A DNA stretch of 64,000 bases from Taxawa tesnikishii (nom. ined.) (taxonomy: Eukaryota; Ascomycota; Dothideomycetes; Dothideales): the NCBI GenBank assembly GCA_030247885.1, contig JAPDRO010000016.1:372001-436000 (forward strand), read 5' to 3'. The position numbers and the translations under genes are program-made. Below, one piece after another: positions 6,717 through 62,075 of this stretch. Below the pieces are notes generated by a model. The model worked only from the letters and a program-made list of their open reading frames with translations. It was not told the DNA's origin and made no database searches. Positions within the stretch are counted from its first letter, which is position 1. Every line of letters begins with the position of its first letter.

Positions 6717-8542
6717 CCTGATCGATGGGCGAAAGTACAGTAACGACAGACGTTGGTGAAGCGGGGTGAGGGAGGGCGGAAGGAAAGGTGAGAAGGTGAG
6801 AGAAGGTGGAAAATGGCCAATTCTAACAGTGTACGCGAGGCAACATGGTCGGTGAGGGAAGAAGCAACATGATGGCAACGAGCATGCTGTCTTCGAGCGA
6901 AGACGGTCAGGTCCTGCGTGAGTGCAGGTGGTGGCGTTCTAGTGGACTAGCAGAGGCTACTTTTGCGCGTGCTTTGCTTGGGTCAAGTCAAGTCTCAGTT
7001 CGGTGTCTGTCGCCGGCCTCTTGCGCTTATCCGGATGTTGATCCGCGCTGCAGGTCGCATTGGCATCAAGACCAAGACTAAACGCCGCTCTGCATCGGGT
7101 AGTACAACACTAACCCGTTACATCGCCCATCCCATGCGCATTGCCATCTATCTCTGTGCCTCGCAGTCTACCAAGCAGCAGCAGCAGCAGCAGCAGCAGC
7201 TCTGCTGTTCGCACAATGACGGCAGTTGATGGCCGATTAGATGGCCCCTTTCGTTCCTCTTCCTCGTTCGGGCTGCCAAGCTGAGCCGGCGTGTCTGGCC
7301 CGAGCACCCGCCGCTCTTTAGTCATTCCTTTGGAAGACACGAACCCGACCGTTTTTACTCTCTGCCCCTCCATTCCGGCAGCTACTACAACTGACATCTG
7401 ACTCCTCTCTCTCCCTCTCTCCCCCTTCGTTCTCAAGCAGGTGCCCTTTGAGATTTTGCCCAGTCACTCGCACCTCGACGCGGTCATGCGACCGTCGCAC
7501 CGTCACCCACATGACGCTCTGTGTATGCGCCTCACCCGTCGCTGTCACCGGGTAACTGGCTTTTGCCATGGGCAGATTTTCGCTCCTTGTGTCGCATACG
7601 CAAGCTGCATCGCCTCTCGGGTAGTACGGGTGCGGTGCTATCCGAACCTCTACCGGCTACCGGTTACTGGCTACTGGCTACTGGCTACTGACTACATTCT
7701 GTCACAAATGCAAGACAACTATCATAGCAAACGTGGCTGACTGAGACCCGGAGTGCTGGCAAAACAACGACATGGAAGTTCCTTGTTGCCCGCCATGTGC
7801 CTGTGCCGGGTTCATAGGATTTACGAGCCGCAGCAGGCTCGCGTGCGCTTCTTGTGACCAGTAACGCCGACTCGGGGACCAGCCGGACCATCAAAGTCAG
7901 ACCTGGGGTTATGGTGTCTTGCTTACCGTCTTTCATATACGGCAGTCCTTCTATTGGCCACGCTATAGACGATTGGAGCGGAATCGCATCCGGTATTGTT
8001 CTCAACAGCATGTATCGGGATTCTCTACTGCACCCTCGAGAATATAGGACGCATGTGTCGACGTGCGGTCAAGAACCATGGTACTGTTGAGGGAAAGGGC
8101 ATTGCGCAGGACAGATGACCTCGCCTAAGCATCTTGATGCAGTATCATCCCATGTCACACGGTGGCTGGAGACACGACACGTCGCGCATACTGCGTTAGA
8201 AGTCAACATAATACTCATAAAGCATGTCCATAGCCGTGCGCTGCCAGATTCTCTTTGCAGCCATGGAGACGCCCAATAACAAAGACCATGGACAGGAGGA
8301 CGGTGACACACAACAGCATCTCATACACTTTACCGAGGCAAGTTCACATTAGCCAAATGCCCGCTCCATGCTTCTTGTCGGAATGGCAGCCAACCCTGCG
8401 AATACAATATCCACCACGCACGTCCACGAAGACTTGAGTATTGTAAGCACTGTTTTCATTTTTTAATTTTTTGAAGCCACCAAGTGATGGCAAAGCGTCC
8501 GGCATCGCCCAACCCGATCGCAAGACGATGATTCCTTGGGTA
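6717..8542. other. Intergenic region with simple repeats
   Basis: Upstream of the Hmt1-type gene and downstream of the helicase gene. It holds an (AGC)9 microsatellite at 7174-7200 and a short GGCTACT-type tandem around 7650-7695. Open frames are short and unrecognised. Pyrimidine-rich sequence near 6760-6840 is a plausible promoter zone for the transporter. Confidence 0.5.
7174..7200. repeat. (AGC)9 trinucleotide microsatellite
   Basis: Nine perfect AGC units, outside any recognised coding exon. Confidence 0.95.
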
Positions 8543-33306: not shown

Positions 33307-34025
33307 GCTCGGCAAGACAGCAGTCAAGGACCAGAACGGACCCGCGAAGCGCCGTGCGAAGCAACGTTTCAAACACATGTGCGCATGAACGCAGTTCGAG
33401 AATCACGTTAGATGTAGATGCATGTCAAAATGAACAACAAACAATGCACCCATGTCCTCGTCTGCGTTGTCGTACTATTGAGTCCTGAAGTTGCCCGTCG
33501 CGAAAGTGACTTCGAATCTCAGTAGTCTTTGAAAAGTCTGTAAGCTGTCATGGTTTGTCCCAAACACCACTGACCGACGGTCTCAGCAGGGAAATGGAAT
33601 ATGACGTTCCCAGCGCATCTCTAGCAAGCTCACCCAAAGGGAGCTCAGCCTTCGAGGCCGGTTGTTCTTAGATCTGTCGACCGGAAGATTGACATCACAG
33701 TTTCTGATGGCTCCATGAGACGTCGAGCTGTTCGGCAATCGACCGACAGCCCCAGAGACTGAGGCGCCAGGATCGCCGAACACAGATCTTTGTTTGTAGG
33801 AGTGCGAGGAAAAGTTCTGTAGAGAAATATTTATTCGAGAGGCAGCGCGCCAAGCCTGGCATGGCGGGAGCAGCCGCGGCGCATCTCCCAAACTCCGTCA
33901 CCTTCGATTAGCACACCCACTTAACTGACCCATCACACTTCCTTCCTCTTTGTCACGACGCTGTTTTGCCATCCTAGGTCACAACTTGCATCTTGACGAC
34001 CGTACAGGACCAATAGACCGCCAAT
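33307..34025. other. Intergenic region upstream of the Snu66 gene
   Basis: Tandem spacer between the Pth2 stop and the Snu66 start. The last 150 bases are pyrimidine-rich (CTTCCTTCCTCTTTG) and likely contain the promoter. No gene seen. Confidence 0.5.
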
Positions 34026-55184: not shown

Positions 55185-55338
55185 GGCGAGATGGCCGTAA
55201 GTCACACCCTCTAGCCTTGCTTTATACTTGCACCGATACTAACCAACACGAAGGAGCGGTCTAAGGCGCTGTCTTAAGGAATTCCTATCCCTAAACCGGC
55301 AGTCCGAAAGGGCGTGGGTTCGAATCCCACTCTTGTCA
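55185..55338 (+). tRNA. tRNA-Leu(AAG) split by a D-arm intron and a canonical anticodon-loop intron
   Basis: The 3' part is a clear leucine tRNA: GAGCGGTCTAAGGCGC (D loop and stem), anticodon stem CTGTC/GGCAG, anticodon AAG at 55276-55278, short variable arm, T arm GTGGG-TTCGAAT-CCCAC and acceptor strand TCTTGTC with discriminator A (55338). A 17-base intron (about 55280-55296) sits after position 37, as usual. The 5' acceptor is not adjacent. GGCGAGATGGCC at 55185-55196 supplies it: GGCGAGA pairs over all seven positions with TCTTGTC (two G-T), and T8, G9 and the D-stem GCC follow. Between lies a 57-base GTAAGT...AG insert. Removing both inserts leaves an 80-base tRNA with normal arms. No T run for Pol III termination follows within about 90 bases, so activity is uncertain. 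Confidence 0.7.
55197..55253 (+). other. Spliceosomal-type intron inside the tRNA D arm
   Basis: Fifty-seven bases starting GTAAGT and ending AG, with a perfect TACTAAC branch site (55238-55244) nine bases before the end. Length and signals match the protein-gene introns of this window. It separates TGGCC from GAGCGG, which together form a standard Leu box A. Position and pairing are seen; that it is removed by the spliceosome is inference. Confidence 0.6.
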
Positions 55339-56767
55339 TTATCTTAGCATTTGTGTGGAAGCTCTATCACAAGAAACTTGATCCCTTCCTCGTTGAGGGC
55401 CACGCTGTCATGCAAAGTTTCGTGTACAGAGCAACATTTTTGAACCCTTCACGACCCCAAATCCTGTGCGCATGTACTATGCGTTTACGGTCTTGCAGCT
55501 CCTGGGACGGTCTACCGGGACTAAGGAAAGTTCTTTTCATCGGCGCCGTTGTCAACGAATTGCTGTTAGACGAGAGACAGCCCAACTCCAACCTCCATGT
55601 GTCGAGTCCGCTAGAAAGTACCTAGAAAGGCACGAAGGCGATAACCACTAGGCTCAACGTTGTACCACTGAGGGCTTAGTTGACTCATGTCCCGCCGTTC
55701 CAGGGTCAACGGCACTTGTAACCGTCTTGGGGGATCAGTCCATGCACGACTAGGACTACTAACAACTTTCACGCAAGGACATGAACTACAGCCTTGAAGC
55801 TCTACCACGCCAGAGCGTGAACCGTCTATAGCCGGTCACTTCCCTTCTAACTACACTAACTACACGTCGGACCACGCCGACGTGCGCAAACTAATTTCCA
55901 AACAGCCGGGTTTGGGTACAAAGGCGGGTGAGGTTGGTTTAGAGTTATTAGCGGCGGGCTTATCCCGTTCGAGCAATTGAAGAAGGGTTTGTATATTTCT
56001 TCGGCTCGGTCTGGACTCCTGCAACTTCCAACTGCTCTCTGTGTAGTCTTGTTGTCATCGCCTTAAATCCAGCCATGTTCTCGTGTTATCCCTTTCGACC
56101 CCTGTCTTATTGTTGATAATCCCAACAATTGTTGGCCAGCCTTGCCTCCAGGGGTGACCTGGCTGATCCCTTCATGCTATCCCTTTGAAGCAATTTCAAC
56201 TGCACCAACCTCAACCAGTTTAGGGTGTTGAGATGTCACCACCATGCATGATTGACTCAACGACCGCTAGTGATCACTTGTTTCCCACGGAGATTGGAGC
56301 TTCCTCGCACATGAAGGTAAAGTGAAGGGCGATATAGCCTATTGTAACAGCCGTTTCTTTCGGCCGAATGCTGACATAACAATGTCTCATGGTGATGTCG
56401 TTGCGATCGCGACTGCGATTGCGGACGCCAGGCGTCAGCGATGTCGGGAGCGAGATTTCACGAACGTCGAATCGATAGCACTGCAGGACGTCCAAACACA
56501 CAGCAAGAGTTCGTCTTTGTGGCAGTCTTCGAACGGCAGCCGGCCAGAGCAGGGGTCTCAGAGATGGGACAAAAAGACAAGCCAGTCCAAGCCACAGGAC
56601 GTGCACAAGTGGAGCAAGACTTCAGCTGTCAGCGATGCGACAACTCGGATGAATCGTTTGGGAACAAGGGCTTGGAGCTTATATATCATTTAGAGAGCTG
56701 GGAGATAAGGACTATATACGGAATTAGAGATACCTTCTCGTGATTTTGGTATTTCTGACCGTTTATA
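55339..56767. other. Gene-poor region downstream of the tRNA
   Basis: No protein-like frame, repeat or RNA gene recognised. The last part is the 3' flank of the Nudix gene on the minus strand. Confidence 0.45.
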
Positions 56768-58523: not shown

Positions 58524-61500
58524 CTAAGCACTCAAGTTCTCAAGGAAGAATGTCGGAGCATTCGGCACCGCATTCTCTGCTTGGGGCGGAAGTTCGGCTC
58601 TCTGCTCTCCGACCTTGATGTCGCCCACACCTCCCACAACCTCGCCCCTCTTTCCTCCCTCCTCGACCTTGATGATCTCCACCACGACACACTTTTGCAC
58701 GGATTGCTTGATGCCAGGAGCCATCTCCTTTAGGACCTCAGTTTCGTCAAACTTCAGCTTGCGCCCGAAGACCTCTTCTGTCGGCGCACCGCTCTCAAGG
58801 CTCTTCTTGAGACTTTGCACGAAAGGCATGGCTTTCTTGCTCTCCGCCTTGTCAATCTTCTTGGAGATGGCCTTCATGTCCAAGCTCATGCCGTTGAAGG
58901 ACTCACGGACGATCTCAACGTACTTCTCCTGCCAGCTTGGGTAGTTCAAAGCGCAGTAGATGGTGAGTTTCTTCTCCTTCTTGGGGTCGTAAGATACGCT
59001 CTTGCCCTTTGCAAACGCTTCAACTGTGCTCCCTCTGCGGAAGTGATGTTGCTGCTCGTGAGGCGGACATACTCACGTGCAGCGTCGAACTCGGACATGC
59101 TAGCTGGGACCTCAGGGAAGAGGGCATTCTGGACCGTTAACGGCTTCTTCAGCACCTCTAGCCAGATGTATTCGGACCAGTGAGGGGCCACGACACACAG
59201 CATGAGGGCTTGAAGTTCGATGTAGTAGCGAGCGAGATCGGCATGCATACCGATACCTGCCGCCTTAGTAACTTCACGGTAGAAGTCACGAGCGGCGGTG
59301 AAGTCGTAGAGACCGAATTTCATGGCCGACTTGTAGTTGCTCCTGTATACCCAATTAGTCACTATTCTGTGTCCGATAATCTCCTTCTCAAAATAGCGAC
59401 TTACAGCTCATACTGTTGCTTCGTTTCGCGCACAAGGCCATTGATCTCGTTCTCGAAGAGATTGTCCCAGAAAGCCTTCTCACCGGTGCGCTGAATGGTA
59501 TCATTGTTCTTGAGGCGCTCATTCTCCCTGACGTGCATGTACTCCGTACTGTCTTTGATGAGGCGAGCGTCTTGTACCATCTCTTCGCACCATTTCCTGA
59601 GTTCGTAGAGTTTAAGGATGACCGCGTTGGCCACGCTCTCTTCGAAGTTTGCATCTTCGATTCCGTCACCGGCATCTGCAAGCGCAACGCGAGTCGCGTC
59701 TGCCCCGAACTTGTCCGTCGCTTGCTTCAGGGTAAGGAAGTTGCCAGTACTCTTACTCATCTTTTCGCCATTGAGCATAAGGTGGCCGTTTGCGCGGATA
59801 GCTTTTGGCCAATGCTCACGCTTAAAAGCGCAAGGTGGATGTAGAGGCAGAATGTAAGGTGGTTCTGGATCAAGTCCTTGCCCGAGACTCTGACATCGAG
59901 GGGTACCAGTACTCGAACTCTCTACGCATTGCGTGAAGAGACTCTTTTGGAATATCGCTCTCCACGCTCTCACGACGGCAGAAAATGTAGTCCCACACCT
60001 CATCAGTCATTTGCTCCGCACCAACGTTGGCCGATCCGCGTGTCTTTCCAAAGATGTCACCGTGAAGCAGATGTGCGATTGTGTAGTACGACATGTAAAT
60101 GGTGCTGTCACTGAGAGACTCAACGAGGAACTGGTGATCCCAAGGTAGCTTAGATCCAAGACCGTATGATCTGGCGCAAGCCCATTGTGACAGCCAATCC
60201 AAGGTCTGCTCGAAAGAGTTCTTGGCCTCTGTGGAAAAGGTGTTCAGGCCGTCGTCCTCGGTGACATAGTCGAGCACGGTCCTTTGCCACTCGGGGTCGC
60301 CCTTCCCGTAGTTGAGATACCATTGGTCCAAGAACCCAGCGACGCAGTCGTCGCCAGATCTGCTGATAACCAGTCCGTCAGGCTCTGCATAGTTGAATGC
60401 GTCTCCAGAGTCGATAAGAATCTGCCTGACCAGTGGTTTTGCTTCCTCGACAGACTTTCCTTTGTACTGTCCGTAGACCATCGTACCCTTGTAGAAACCC
60501 TCCTTGTATGCAAGCTCCTTAGCCTCTGCAAGCTGCTTGGCGTCCTTGGGCGAGTTGATCTTCATCTTCTCCACGAGGTACTTTGCAGTTACGTTGCCGT
60601 ATGATGGGGTATCAATGATAGGGATCATCTCTAGCTCCGCCCATTCCTTCTTGATACCGTAATACTCGGTCTTCTTGGCAAGATCCATAACGGTGGCATA
60701 GTCGTCAGGGCTGTCAGAAGGAACACAAGTGACCACTCCGGTGCCCTTGGCGGCCTTCACAGTCTCCATAGGCAGAATCCTTACACCCTCAGTATGCACA
60801 GACAGAGGTGCGTTTACAAGAGTGCCAACGACCTCAGAGCCTTGCAGTTCAGCAACCTTGGGGAAAACGCCCCACTTGGGGAAGATGCCTTGGAACGCCA
60901 TGTTGCGGGCTGCGCGCTCCGAAACAAAGAAGTATTCGTTATCCGAAACATGGTACAATCCATAGGCGATCTTAGGTCCAACGAAACAGCAAGTCTGGCC
61001 ATACATGGTTTCCGGACGCAGCGTAGCAGGGACGAAATAGACGTTGGCGCCTTGCGGCAGCTTTCCTTCCAGAGCCTTTTGCGCCGCCTCAGGCCATTCC
61101 TTAACCTTCAACTTGAGTGCAGTATATTCTTGGACTCCCACACCTTCACCAGTGCTCCTGTCGTGATCCATACATGCCTGTCCATCCTTGGGAGAGTAGA
61201 CGGTATAGCGCTTGCCAAACTTGATCTTTCCAAGCTCCTTCAGGCGGTTCATCTGCCACCTCACGAATGCATCGTAGTATGGATTGGCGTCGGTGGTAAC
61301 CATGGATCTCCTCCAGTCCACCCGCGCGCCAAAGTTGGTCAGATCACGCTCGCAGAGGGGTGGGAAGTACTCCAGCCAGTAGTACGGATCAGCGAACTTG
61401 TGGATTTCTTTGATCGGTATTCCCAGAGCAAGCATAATCTGGAATTGATATTTCATCTTGACGGTCTTAGCAGCAGCCTTGCTCTTCTTCGCGGTGAACT

Positions 61501-62075
61501 TAGTAGCGTCTGTCTTCGGGGTGTCTTCCGTTGGTGCTGGGGTAGCATCGACCTCATCGTTGGTCAGGTCTTCTGCCGGGCAGTTCTCGAAGTTCTGGCC
61601 GAACATCTCCACCTCCCTGATCAGCTTGTCCGCGCAAGCCTTTATAGGCATTCCGGTGCAGTGGTATCCCTGGGGAAAGAGGGCACGCTTGCCCTGCATG
61701 CGCGCCCAGCCCGTCGCGAACTCAACTTTGGAAGCGGTAAACGAGTGACCAGCGTGGAGGACACCGTTCATGTAAGGGTAAGCCATAGTTCCCATGAACT
61801 TTGGGTGTTTGGCGCGCATCTCATTTGCGGAGATGGACTGGTAGGCGAACTCGGAGAGCGAGGGCGCATTCTGCTCGAATACGCGGTCTTCCTTCCATTT
61901 CCGCTGATACTTCTTCTCAGACGCGATGAGGGTATCTCTCTTCTCGGTCTACGCTGCCTTTAGTGTCTTGTTCGTCTCTTGTTCGAGCGCCAGTACCAAC
62001 GTTCTCGATTTTCAAGGTCTTCTCGGTACTGTTGCTCGGGTTGAGAGCGTCCTTCGAGGCTTGAACGGCTGCCAT
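58524..62075 (-). CDS. Cytosolic leucyl-tRNA synthetase; frame broken three times
   Basis: Class I leucyl-tRNA synthetase of the eukaryotic cytosolic (Cdc60) type, about 1,100 residues. The start MAAVQASKDALNPSNSTEK (62075) leads, across a probable 52-base GTTGGT-AG intron, to TEKRDTLIASEKKYQRKWKE. The HIGH-type motif is PYMNGVLHAGHSF. The CP1 editing domain includes TLRPETMYGQTC and GTGVVTCVPSDSPDDYATV. The KMSKS loop is LNGEKMSKSTGNF. An intron near 59403-59343 precedes the anticodon-binding domain (YIELQALMLCVVAPHWSEYI), and the tail ends PTFFLENLSA. The frame slips at 59900-59903 (G4), 59824-59827 (A4) and 59013-59015 (A3), each one base short. As this enzyme is indispensable, the slips are almost certainly sequence errors. 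Confidence 0.94.

Follow-up and report, generated by a model that had tools for sequence, protein, structure and literature searches.

Putative spliceosomal introns in a set of nuclear tRNA genes of the fungus Taxawa tesnikishii

The introns of tRNAs and those of mRNAs are taught as separate systems with separate enzymes. What kind of intron, then, interrupts the D arm of a nuclear tRNA-Leu(AAG) gene in Taxawa tesnikishii, and could such a gene still yield a tRNA? This organism is described in excerpts of its genome paper as a black fungus of the Dothideales from desert soil crust (PMC11195213). The window that we analysed is a stretch of 64,000 nucleotides (C8:372001-436000) from a genome of 34 contigs and 29.4 Mb. 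The first-pass annotation had placed at 55185-55338 of this window a tRNA-Leu(AAG) gene, hereafter L001, split in its D arm by a 57-base insert, and both the coordinates and the motifs proved to be as described.

L001, which lies on the plus strand, consists of GGCGAGATGGCC, the 57 bases of the insert, and a remainder reading GAGCGG...TCTTGTCA. Its first exon, GGCGAGATGGCC (55185..55196), provides the acceptor strand, T8, G9 and the first half of the D stem, and pairs with the 3' acceptor strand at 7/7 positions. The spliceosomal-type intron follows tRNA position 12 (55197..55253) and has a donor, a branch site and an acceptor of the type seen in the introns that we fitted in the MCM3 gene of the window (see below): GTAAGT at the 5' splice site (55197..55202), the branch-site motif TACTAAC (55237..55243) with its branch A at 55242, 11 nt ahead of the intron end, and AAG at the 3' splice site (55251..55253), an acceptor also found among the MCM3 introns. 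The remainder (55254..55338) holds the rest of the D arm, the anticodon, variable and T arms, the acceptor strand and A73, and gives a cloverleaf once joined to the first exon. Within it lie the anticodon AAG (55276-55278), an unbroken B box, GGTTCGAATCC (55317..55327), that matches the B-box pattern, and, after position 37, an ordinary anticodon-loop intron (AATTCCTATCCCTAAAC, 55280..55296). This second intron is 17 nt long under the 37/38 rule; ARAGORN draws 19 nt.

A BLAST search of the region against its own genome revealed three intact Leu(AAG) genes (L002, L003 and L004) and two further split ones (L005 and L006). In the intact genes, whose 5' half matches 55185-55196, GGCGAGATGGCC runs directly into GAGCGG, and an anticodon-loop intron sits at the same place as in L001. 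Since all three carry this junction unbroken, the 12 bases ahead of the insert are the true 5' end of the gene, as the first-pass annotation had proposed, and the edges of the insert are fixed within one base. The exons of L001 equal those of L002 at 79/79 compared bases, the anticodon intron being left out. The predicted join also restores box A, as had been claimed, and ARAGORN folds the joined sequence into a cloverleaf with an AAG anticodon, a long variable arm and A73; the program shifts the anticodon by one base (taa), as it does in the intact L002 to L004. Judging from these sequence features, the 57-base insert is very likely a U2-type spliceosomal intron that separates position 12 from position 13 in this nuclear tRNA-Leu(AAG) gene. 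It is less certain that this particular copy is used, since about 100 bases pass downstream of the gene before a TTTT run appears: there is none within 40 nt, and the first starts at 55437.

The first-pass annotation had dealt with one gene and had not mentioned the anticodon-loop intron (about 17-19 nt); a survey of the genome raises the number of split genes to at least eight. Two exact B-box patterns, GGTTCGANTCC (90 places, 84 of them nuclear) and GGTTCGANCCC (58 places, 56 nuclear), located 148 places, the remaining eight of which fall on the mitochondrial-type contigs C25, C26 and C28. We examined 123 of the 140 nuclear sites and added BLAST searches; tRNA genes with other B boxes were covered in part, through an Rfam tRNA search that scored 63 of 926 candidates. 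Fifty-nine tRNA genes combine a 5/5 T stem with a 7/7 acceptor, a count that leaves aside nine more sites whose 5/5 T stem has no 7/7 acceptor partner. Seven of the 59 are split, and L006, recovered by BLAST, brings the split genes to eight. Together these genes contain ten inserts at six sites, numbered here according to our own reading of the cloverleaf as after 12, after G15, in the D loop, after G19, after C25 and in the variable arm. BLAST of the region identified the insert after position 12, in the D arm, of the Leu(AAG) genes L001, L005 and L006. Both L005 and L006 carry another insert as well, which interrupts the long variable arm two bases before the T stem. The B-box survey contributed Leu(CAG) (L119, with the tRNA on the minus strand) and Leu(CAA) (L130, with a GC-AG insert), both interrupted after G15, as well as Val(AAC) (L157), interrupted after C25. 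In Arg(CCT) (L118) the insert lies in the D loop before G18, and in Ala(TGC) (L144) after G19.

In ARAGORN, the joined sequences of all eight genes form cloverleaves, each with an ordinary anticodon intron. Joining the exons of L144 also restores G3:U70, the alanine identity pair, whose two partners lie in different exons (G3 in exon 1, U70 in exon 2). With the anticodon intron excluded, the exons of four further split genes match their intact paralogs at 79/79 (L005 and L003), 78/78 (L119 and L078), 79/80 (L130 and L099) and 74/74 positions (L157 and L052). Only L006 is visibly decaying: its acceptor contains a C-C pair, its T stem has a mismatch, and the donor of its second intron is broken (GG). 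A T-run terminator closely follows six of the eight split genes (L005, L006, L118, L119, L130 and L144); TTTT within 40 nt downstream is absent for L001 and L157, and likewise for two unsplit genes, L067 and L164, among the 59. Box A, which occupies tRNA positions 8-19 according to excerpts of PMC3978253, is broken in six of the eight (L001, L005, L006, L119, L130 and L118), and the B box is intact in seven, with one change in L006. The two genes interrupted after G15, of different isoacceptors, share CAAACGTCACGTGA about 15-40 bases upstream of the tRNA, and L005 and L006 share an upstream AGCTGACCAAT-AGC. The survey also recorded a 3' tRNA-Ser-like fragment (L103, minus strand near 7360) made of a T arm and an acceptor, for which no matching 5' half was detected within about 420 bases.

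The splice signals recur throughout the set. All ten inserts are 51-57 nt long, end with AG and contain a YTNAY motif with its A 10-13 nt before the end. Nine of them open with GT or GC and have G at +5, the exception being the GG...AG second insert of the decaying L006. The edges of eight inserts are dictated by intact paralogs, and those of L118 and L144 were picked by motif and cloverleaf. When donor, branch site and AG were combined into a single test and applied to stretches of 51, 54 and 57 bases at every position of both window strands, the random pass rate was 0.00012, which lends weight to the earlier view that GTAAGT, TACTAAC and AG stand at intron spacing in L001. Nine introns fitted in protein genes of the window (seven in MCM3, two in the leucyl-tRNA synthetase gene) measure 42-62 nt and use AAG, CAG and TAG acceptors. 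Seven of the nine pass the combined test (six of seven in MCM3, where lengths are 42-58 nt, and one of two in the synthetase gene), although the fit itself required a GT or GCAA start and an AG end, so that only length, the G at +5 and the branch site are independent points of likeness; the two that fail may be misfits. Other classes of intron were considered and rejected. Group I and group II introns, which run to hundreds of bases and have a ribozyme fold, do not fit a length of only 51-57 nt, and the Rfam scans list no ribozyme family. None of the six insert sites given above coincides with 37/38, the position cut by the tRNA endonuclease.

Where did these introns come from? Compared with shuffled sequences, the three introns at the shared Leu(AAG) site exhibit no clear excess of similarity (49, 58 and 195 of 500 shuffles reach the score). 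In contrast, the two introns in the variable arms of L005 and L006 are homologous (0/500 shuffles reach the score) and thus represent one intron copied through gene duplication. The first-pass annotation had suggested that a mobile, introner-like element landed in the tRNA gene. Introner-like elements of Dothideomycetes are also spliceosomal introns and occur in the same fungal class (PMC4457414), but no near-identical copies of the tRNA inserts appeared in the searches that we ran. BLAST of L001 with its insert against the genome (E<=0.001), a search that skips very common words and may thus miss a high-copy element, returned only tRNA-Leu loci, and second copies of the ten inserts were absent from the approximately 362 kb searched (overlaps counted), apart from one 20-base partial match (E 0.003). 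With the one repeated pair attributable to descent, a mobile origin is not supported. L001 and L002, as well as L005 and L003, have like exons and differ in that the second member of each pair has no spliceosomal intron, pointing to repeated gain or loss. If the spliceosomal introns alone were lost, the intact Leu(AAG) copies, which keep their anticodon intron, could be retrocopies made from half-processed precursors; gene conversion could also explain the likeness of exons between paralogs.

For two isoacceptors, the split genes could be the only source of the tRNA. No unsplit Ala(TGC) gene was found when the genome was searched with the spliced sequence and the best candidates were scored, a procedure by which a copy could be missed. 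The spliced query matched two genomic places. One is L144 itself, matched at 97% from base 11 of the query; the match extends slightly into exon 1, since the last bases of the intron resemble by chance those that close exon 1. At the second place, C32:968909-968979, bases 18-88 of the query are matched at 89%, and exon 1 with a GT donor (GCGCAGTGGGTTCGT) stands just upstream of it at C32:968848-968862, a placement that would leave a putative intron of about 53 nt there too. From its position, we regard the C32 copy as a probable second split Ala(TGC)-like gene. On contig C3 the 15 bases of Ala(TGC) exon 1 and donor occur twice, at C3:912918 (minus strand) and C3:913346 (plus strand), about 400 bases apart on opposite strands, and a similar exon 1 site with GTCCGT is found at C34:1156109 (minus strand); BLAST with spliced Ala(TGC) reports no exon 2 beside the second C3 site or the C34 site. 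Likewise, no intronless Arg(CCT) gene was detected by the same approach of a spliced query against the genome with scoring of the best candidates. The Arg(CCT) query matched two places, both from exon 2 onward only; at one of them, C12:566180, the match is short (54 bases, 87%), a pattern search found no exon 1, and the sequence may represent a fragment or a different tRNA. For Leu(AAG), Leu(CAG), Leu(CAA) and Val(AAC) the genome also has intact genes, and given these the split Leu and Val copies could be dispensable. Inosine-34 in Ala(AGC), and Arg(TCT), could in principle share decoding. Dependence of the Ala(TGC) and Arg(CCT) supply on splicing is therefore likely, not proved, since other isoacceptors could cover part of the decoding. 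On balance, we lean slightly toward a wider reading in which Ala(UGC), and perhaps Arg(CCU), would come only from genes with spliceosomal introns, making cytosolic translation directly dependent on the spliceosome, and in which the intact Leu(AAG) genes may be retrocopies of precursors from which the spliceosome had already removed its introns.

Our preferred explanation, to which we give high though not complete confidence, is that U2-type spliceosomal introns reside in a set of nuclear tRNA genes and are removed in vivo. Removal itself we consider likely from the preserved sequences. A split gene would be transcribed as one pre-tRNA, most likely by RNA polymerase III, with the GTRAGT donor probably retaining part of the box A consensus. 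The spliceosome would excise the D-arm intron first, before the tRNA can fold, and in L005 the variable-arm intron as well. The tRNA would then fold, the tRNA endonuclease and ligase would take out the anticodon intron, and the tRNA would mature. For Ala(TGC), given that no unsplit gene was found, this spliceosomal route would be the sole path to the tRNA.

The first-pass annotation had left two outcomes side by side, a tRNA that needs the spliceosome or a dead copy. For most of the split genes the former is favoured, because their exons and splice signals are intact and no unsplit Ala(TGC) gene was found; for L001 the choice is less certain. Under the latter, introns would have landed in spare tRNA genes and would stay unremoved in dead or dying copies while intact copies serve. 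The visible decay of L006, the lack of a near T-run terminator at L001 and L157 and the existence of unsplit copies for Leu(AAG), Leu(CAG), Leu(CAA) and Val(AAC) would agree with this. Yet the exons of L001, L005, L119, L130 and L157 differ from those of their intact paralogs at 1/390 positions, the introns at the shared Leu(AAG) site diverged while the exons around them stayed alike, Ala(TGC) has no unsplit gene among those found in the genome search, and 6/8 split genes retain a close terminator, all of which makes death of the set rather unlikely. It is also very unlikely that the tRNA splicing endonuclease cuts these ectopic introns, as in archaea or Cyanidioschyzon. Ectopic tRNA introns are indeed known in Cyanidioschyzon and the Guillardia nucleomorph (excerpts of PMC3978253), and all eight split genes possess the anticodon intron, but a GT/GC...YTNAY...AG arrangement whose branch A stands 10-13 nt from the end is required by the spliceosome and not by the endonuclease, and the exon-intron joints of the three inserts that we folded, out of ten, fold no better than shuffled sequences (z 0.40 to 0.99).

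A different possibility bears on the route of transcription and not on the type of intron, namely that RNA polymerase II transcribes the split genes. Within 90 bases upstream, CACGTG occurs in 2/8 split and 0/51 unsplit genes, CCAAT/ATTGG in 5/8 and 10/51, and TATA-like sequences in 0/8 and 15/51 (the groups following a slightly different rule from the survey count, with L006 added), a contrast that is suggestive only, being post hoc, drawn from a small sample in which L005 and L006 are related, and accompanied by Fisher values of 0.016, 0.020 and 0.10, uncorrected for several tests. The broken box A of six split genes would be in keeping with such a route; the T-run terminators after 6/8 and the intact B boxes of 7/8 argue against it, and we hold it to be improbable, if worth bearing in mind. 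As for chance, contamination or faulty assembly, small indels may exist in this assembly, the leucyl-tRNA synthetase gene of the window needing three -1 frameshifts. However, on different contigs the same tRNA sites are interrupted repeatedly by inserts of 51-57 bases that differ in sequence and carry splice signals, and the synthetase open reading frame is identical over its whole length (100%) to a protein named as that of Taxawa tesnikishii. The pass rate of the combined splice test and the recurrence on different contigs led us to reject chance or artefact, the probability of which appears negligible.

Introns of mRNA type are reported in fungal genes for U6 snRNA and U3 snoRNA (Tani and Ohshima 1989; Canzler 2016; PMC5832005), and according to the title of Canzler 2016 insertion of U6 introns took place several times. 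Those cases resemble the present one in that spliceosomal introns lie within small structured RNA genes of fungi, and differ from it in that the hosts here are tRNA genes, with box A broken in most of them. According to excerpts of PMC5832005, frequent interruption is known for no small structured RNAs other than U3 and U6. Canonical fungal 37/38 introns are present in the same eight genes, L001 included, side by side with the D-arm and variable-arm inserts, which have another place and other motifs. D-arm introns are also known in archaeal tRNA genes. Cyanidioschyzon merolae and the Guillardia theta nucleomorph likewise have introns outside 37/38, sometimes several per gene, but in the available excerpts of PMC3978253 these are discussed as bulge-helix-bulge introns of endonuclease type, many of those in Guillardia having no defined motif, whereas the inserts described here display a spliceosomal donor, branch site and acceptor. 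None of the matches listed in the open literature describes nuclear tRNA genes that contain spliceosomal introns, and the string 'spliceosom' is absent from the main text of a review of tRNA introns (PMC4090602); subscription papers mostly lie outside these matches and may hold such a report. If the preferred reading is true, a fungus that needs the spliceosome for making tRNA would join the tRNA- and mRNA-intron systems, and tRNA genes of several isoacceptors would be able to acquire and retain spliceosomal introns, and to do so at several sites. The action of the spliceosome on tRNA transcripts would become testable in a culturable organism.

The split genes largely escaped ARAGORN and the Rfam tRNA model. 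ARAGORN reported no tRNA in the window with introns disallowed, and with anticodon introns of up to 200 nt it missed L001 and found L002, L003 and L004. When long anticodon introns were allowed, four of the eight split genes were missed (L001, L005, L006 and L118) and the others were misnamed (L119 as Val, L130 as Glu, L144 as Tyr and L157 as Trp). The Rfam tRNA model, which scores the intact L002, L003 and L152 at 42.7-50.9 bits, gave 15.9 bits for unjoined L001, through its T arm, and 27.8 bits for unjoined L144; up to E = 1 it had no match at the split genes L118, L130, L157, L005, L006 and L119. The tRNA match at the L119 locus belongs to another gene on the opposite strand, and the split gene itself has a weak tmRNA match (15.3 bits). 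Excerpts of the genome paper indicate that its tRNAs were called with tRNAscan-SE (PMC11195213). Isoacceptors that are apparently absent from other genomes may be hidden by such split genes.

Several minor observations accompany these results. The cytosolic leucyl-tRNA synthetase gene (window 58530-62075, minus strand), whose three -1 frameshifts are needed relative to its relative P0122, has a shortened public protein of 717 aa; the frameshifts are probably assembly indels, or possibly the mark of a broken copy. The U6 snRNA model matches at C19:390845, C23:1835706 and C33:874318 through its positions 1-66 only, and a search with a single exact pattern did not locate the 3' half close to any of these three matches; U6 may also be interrupted in this genome. 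Contig C25 (80 kb), in which tRNA genes are repeated on both strands, and contigs C26 and C28 (25 and 15 kb) form two mitochondrial-type sets with different tRNA layouts; by their tRNA sets they are probably mitochondrial, and a second mitochondrial genome or a mixed culture is possible. Finally, the Aspergillus fumigatus sRNA family Afu_309 (RF01512) has a full-length match of 161 bits at 33536-33806 of the window, on the minus strand.
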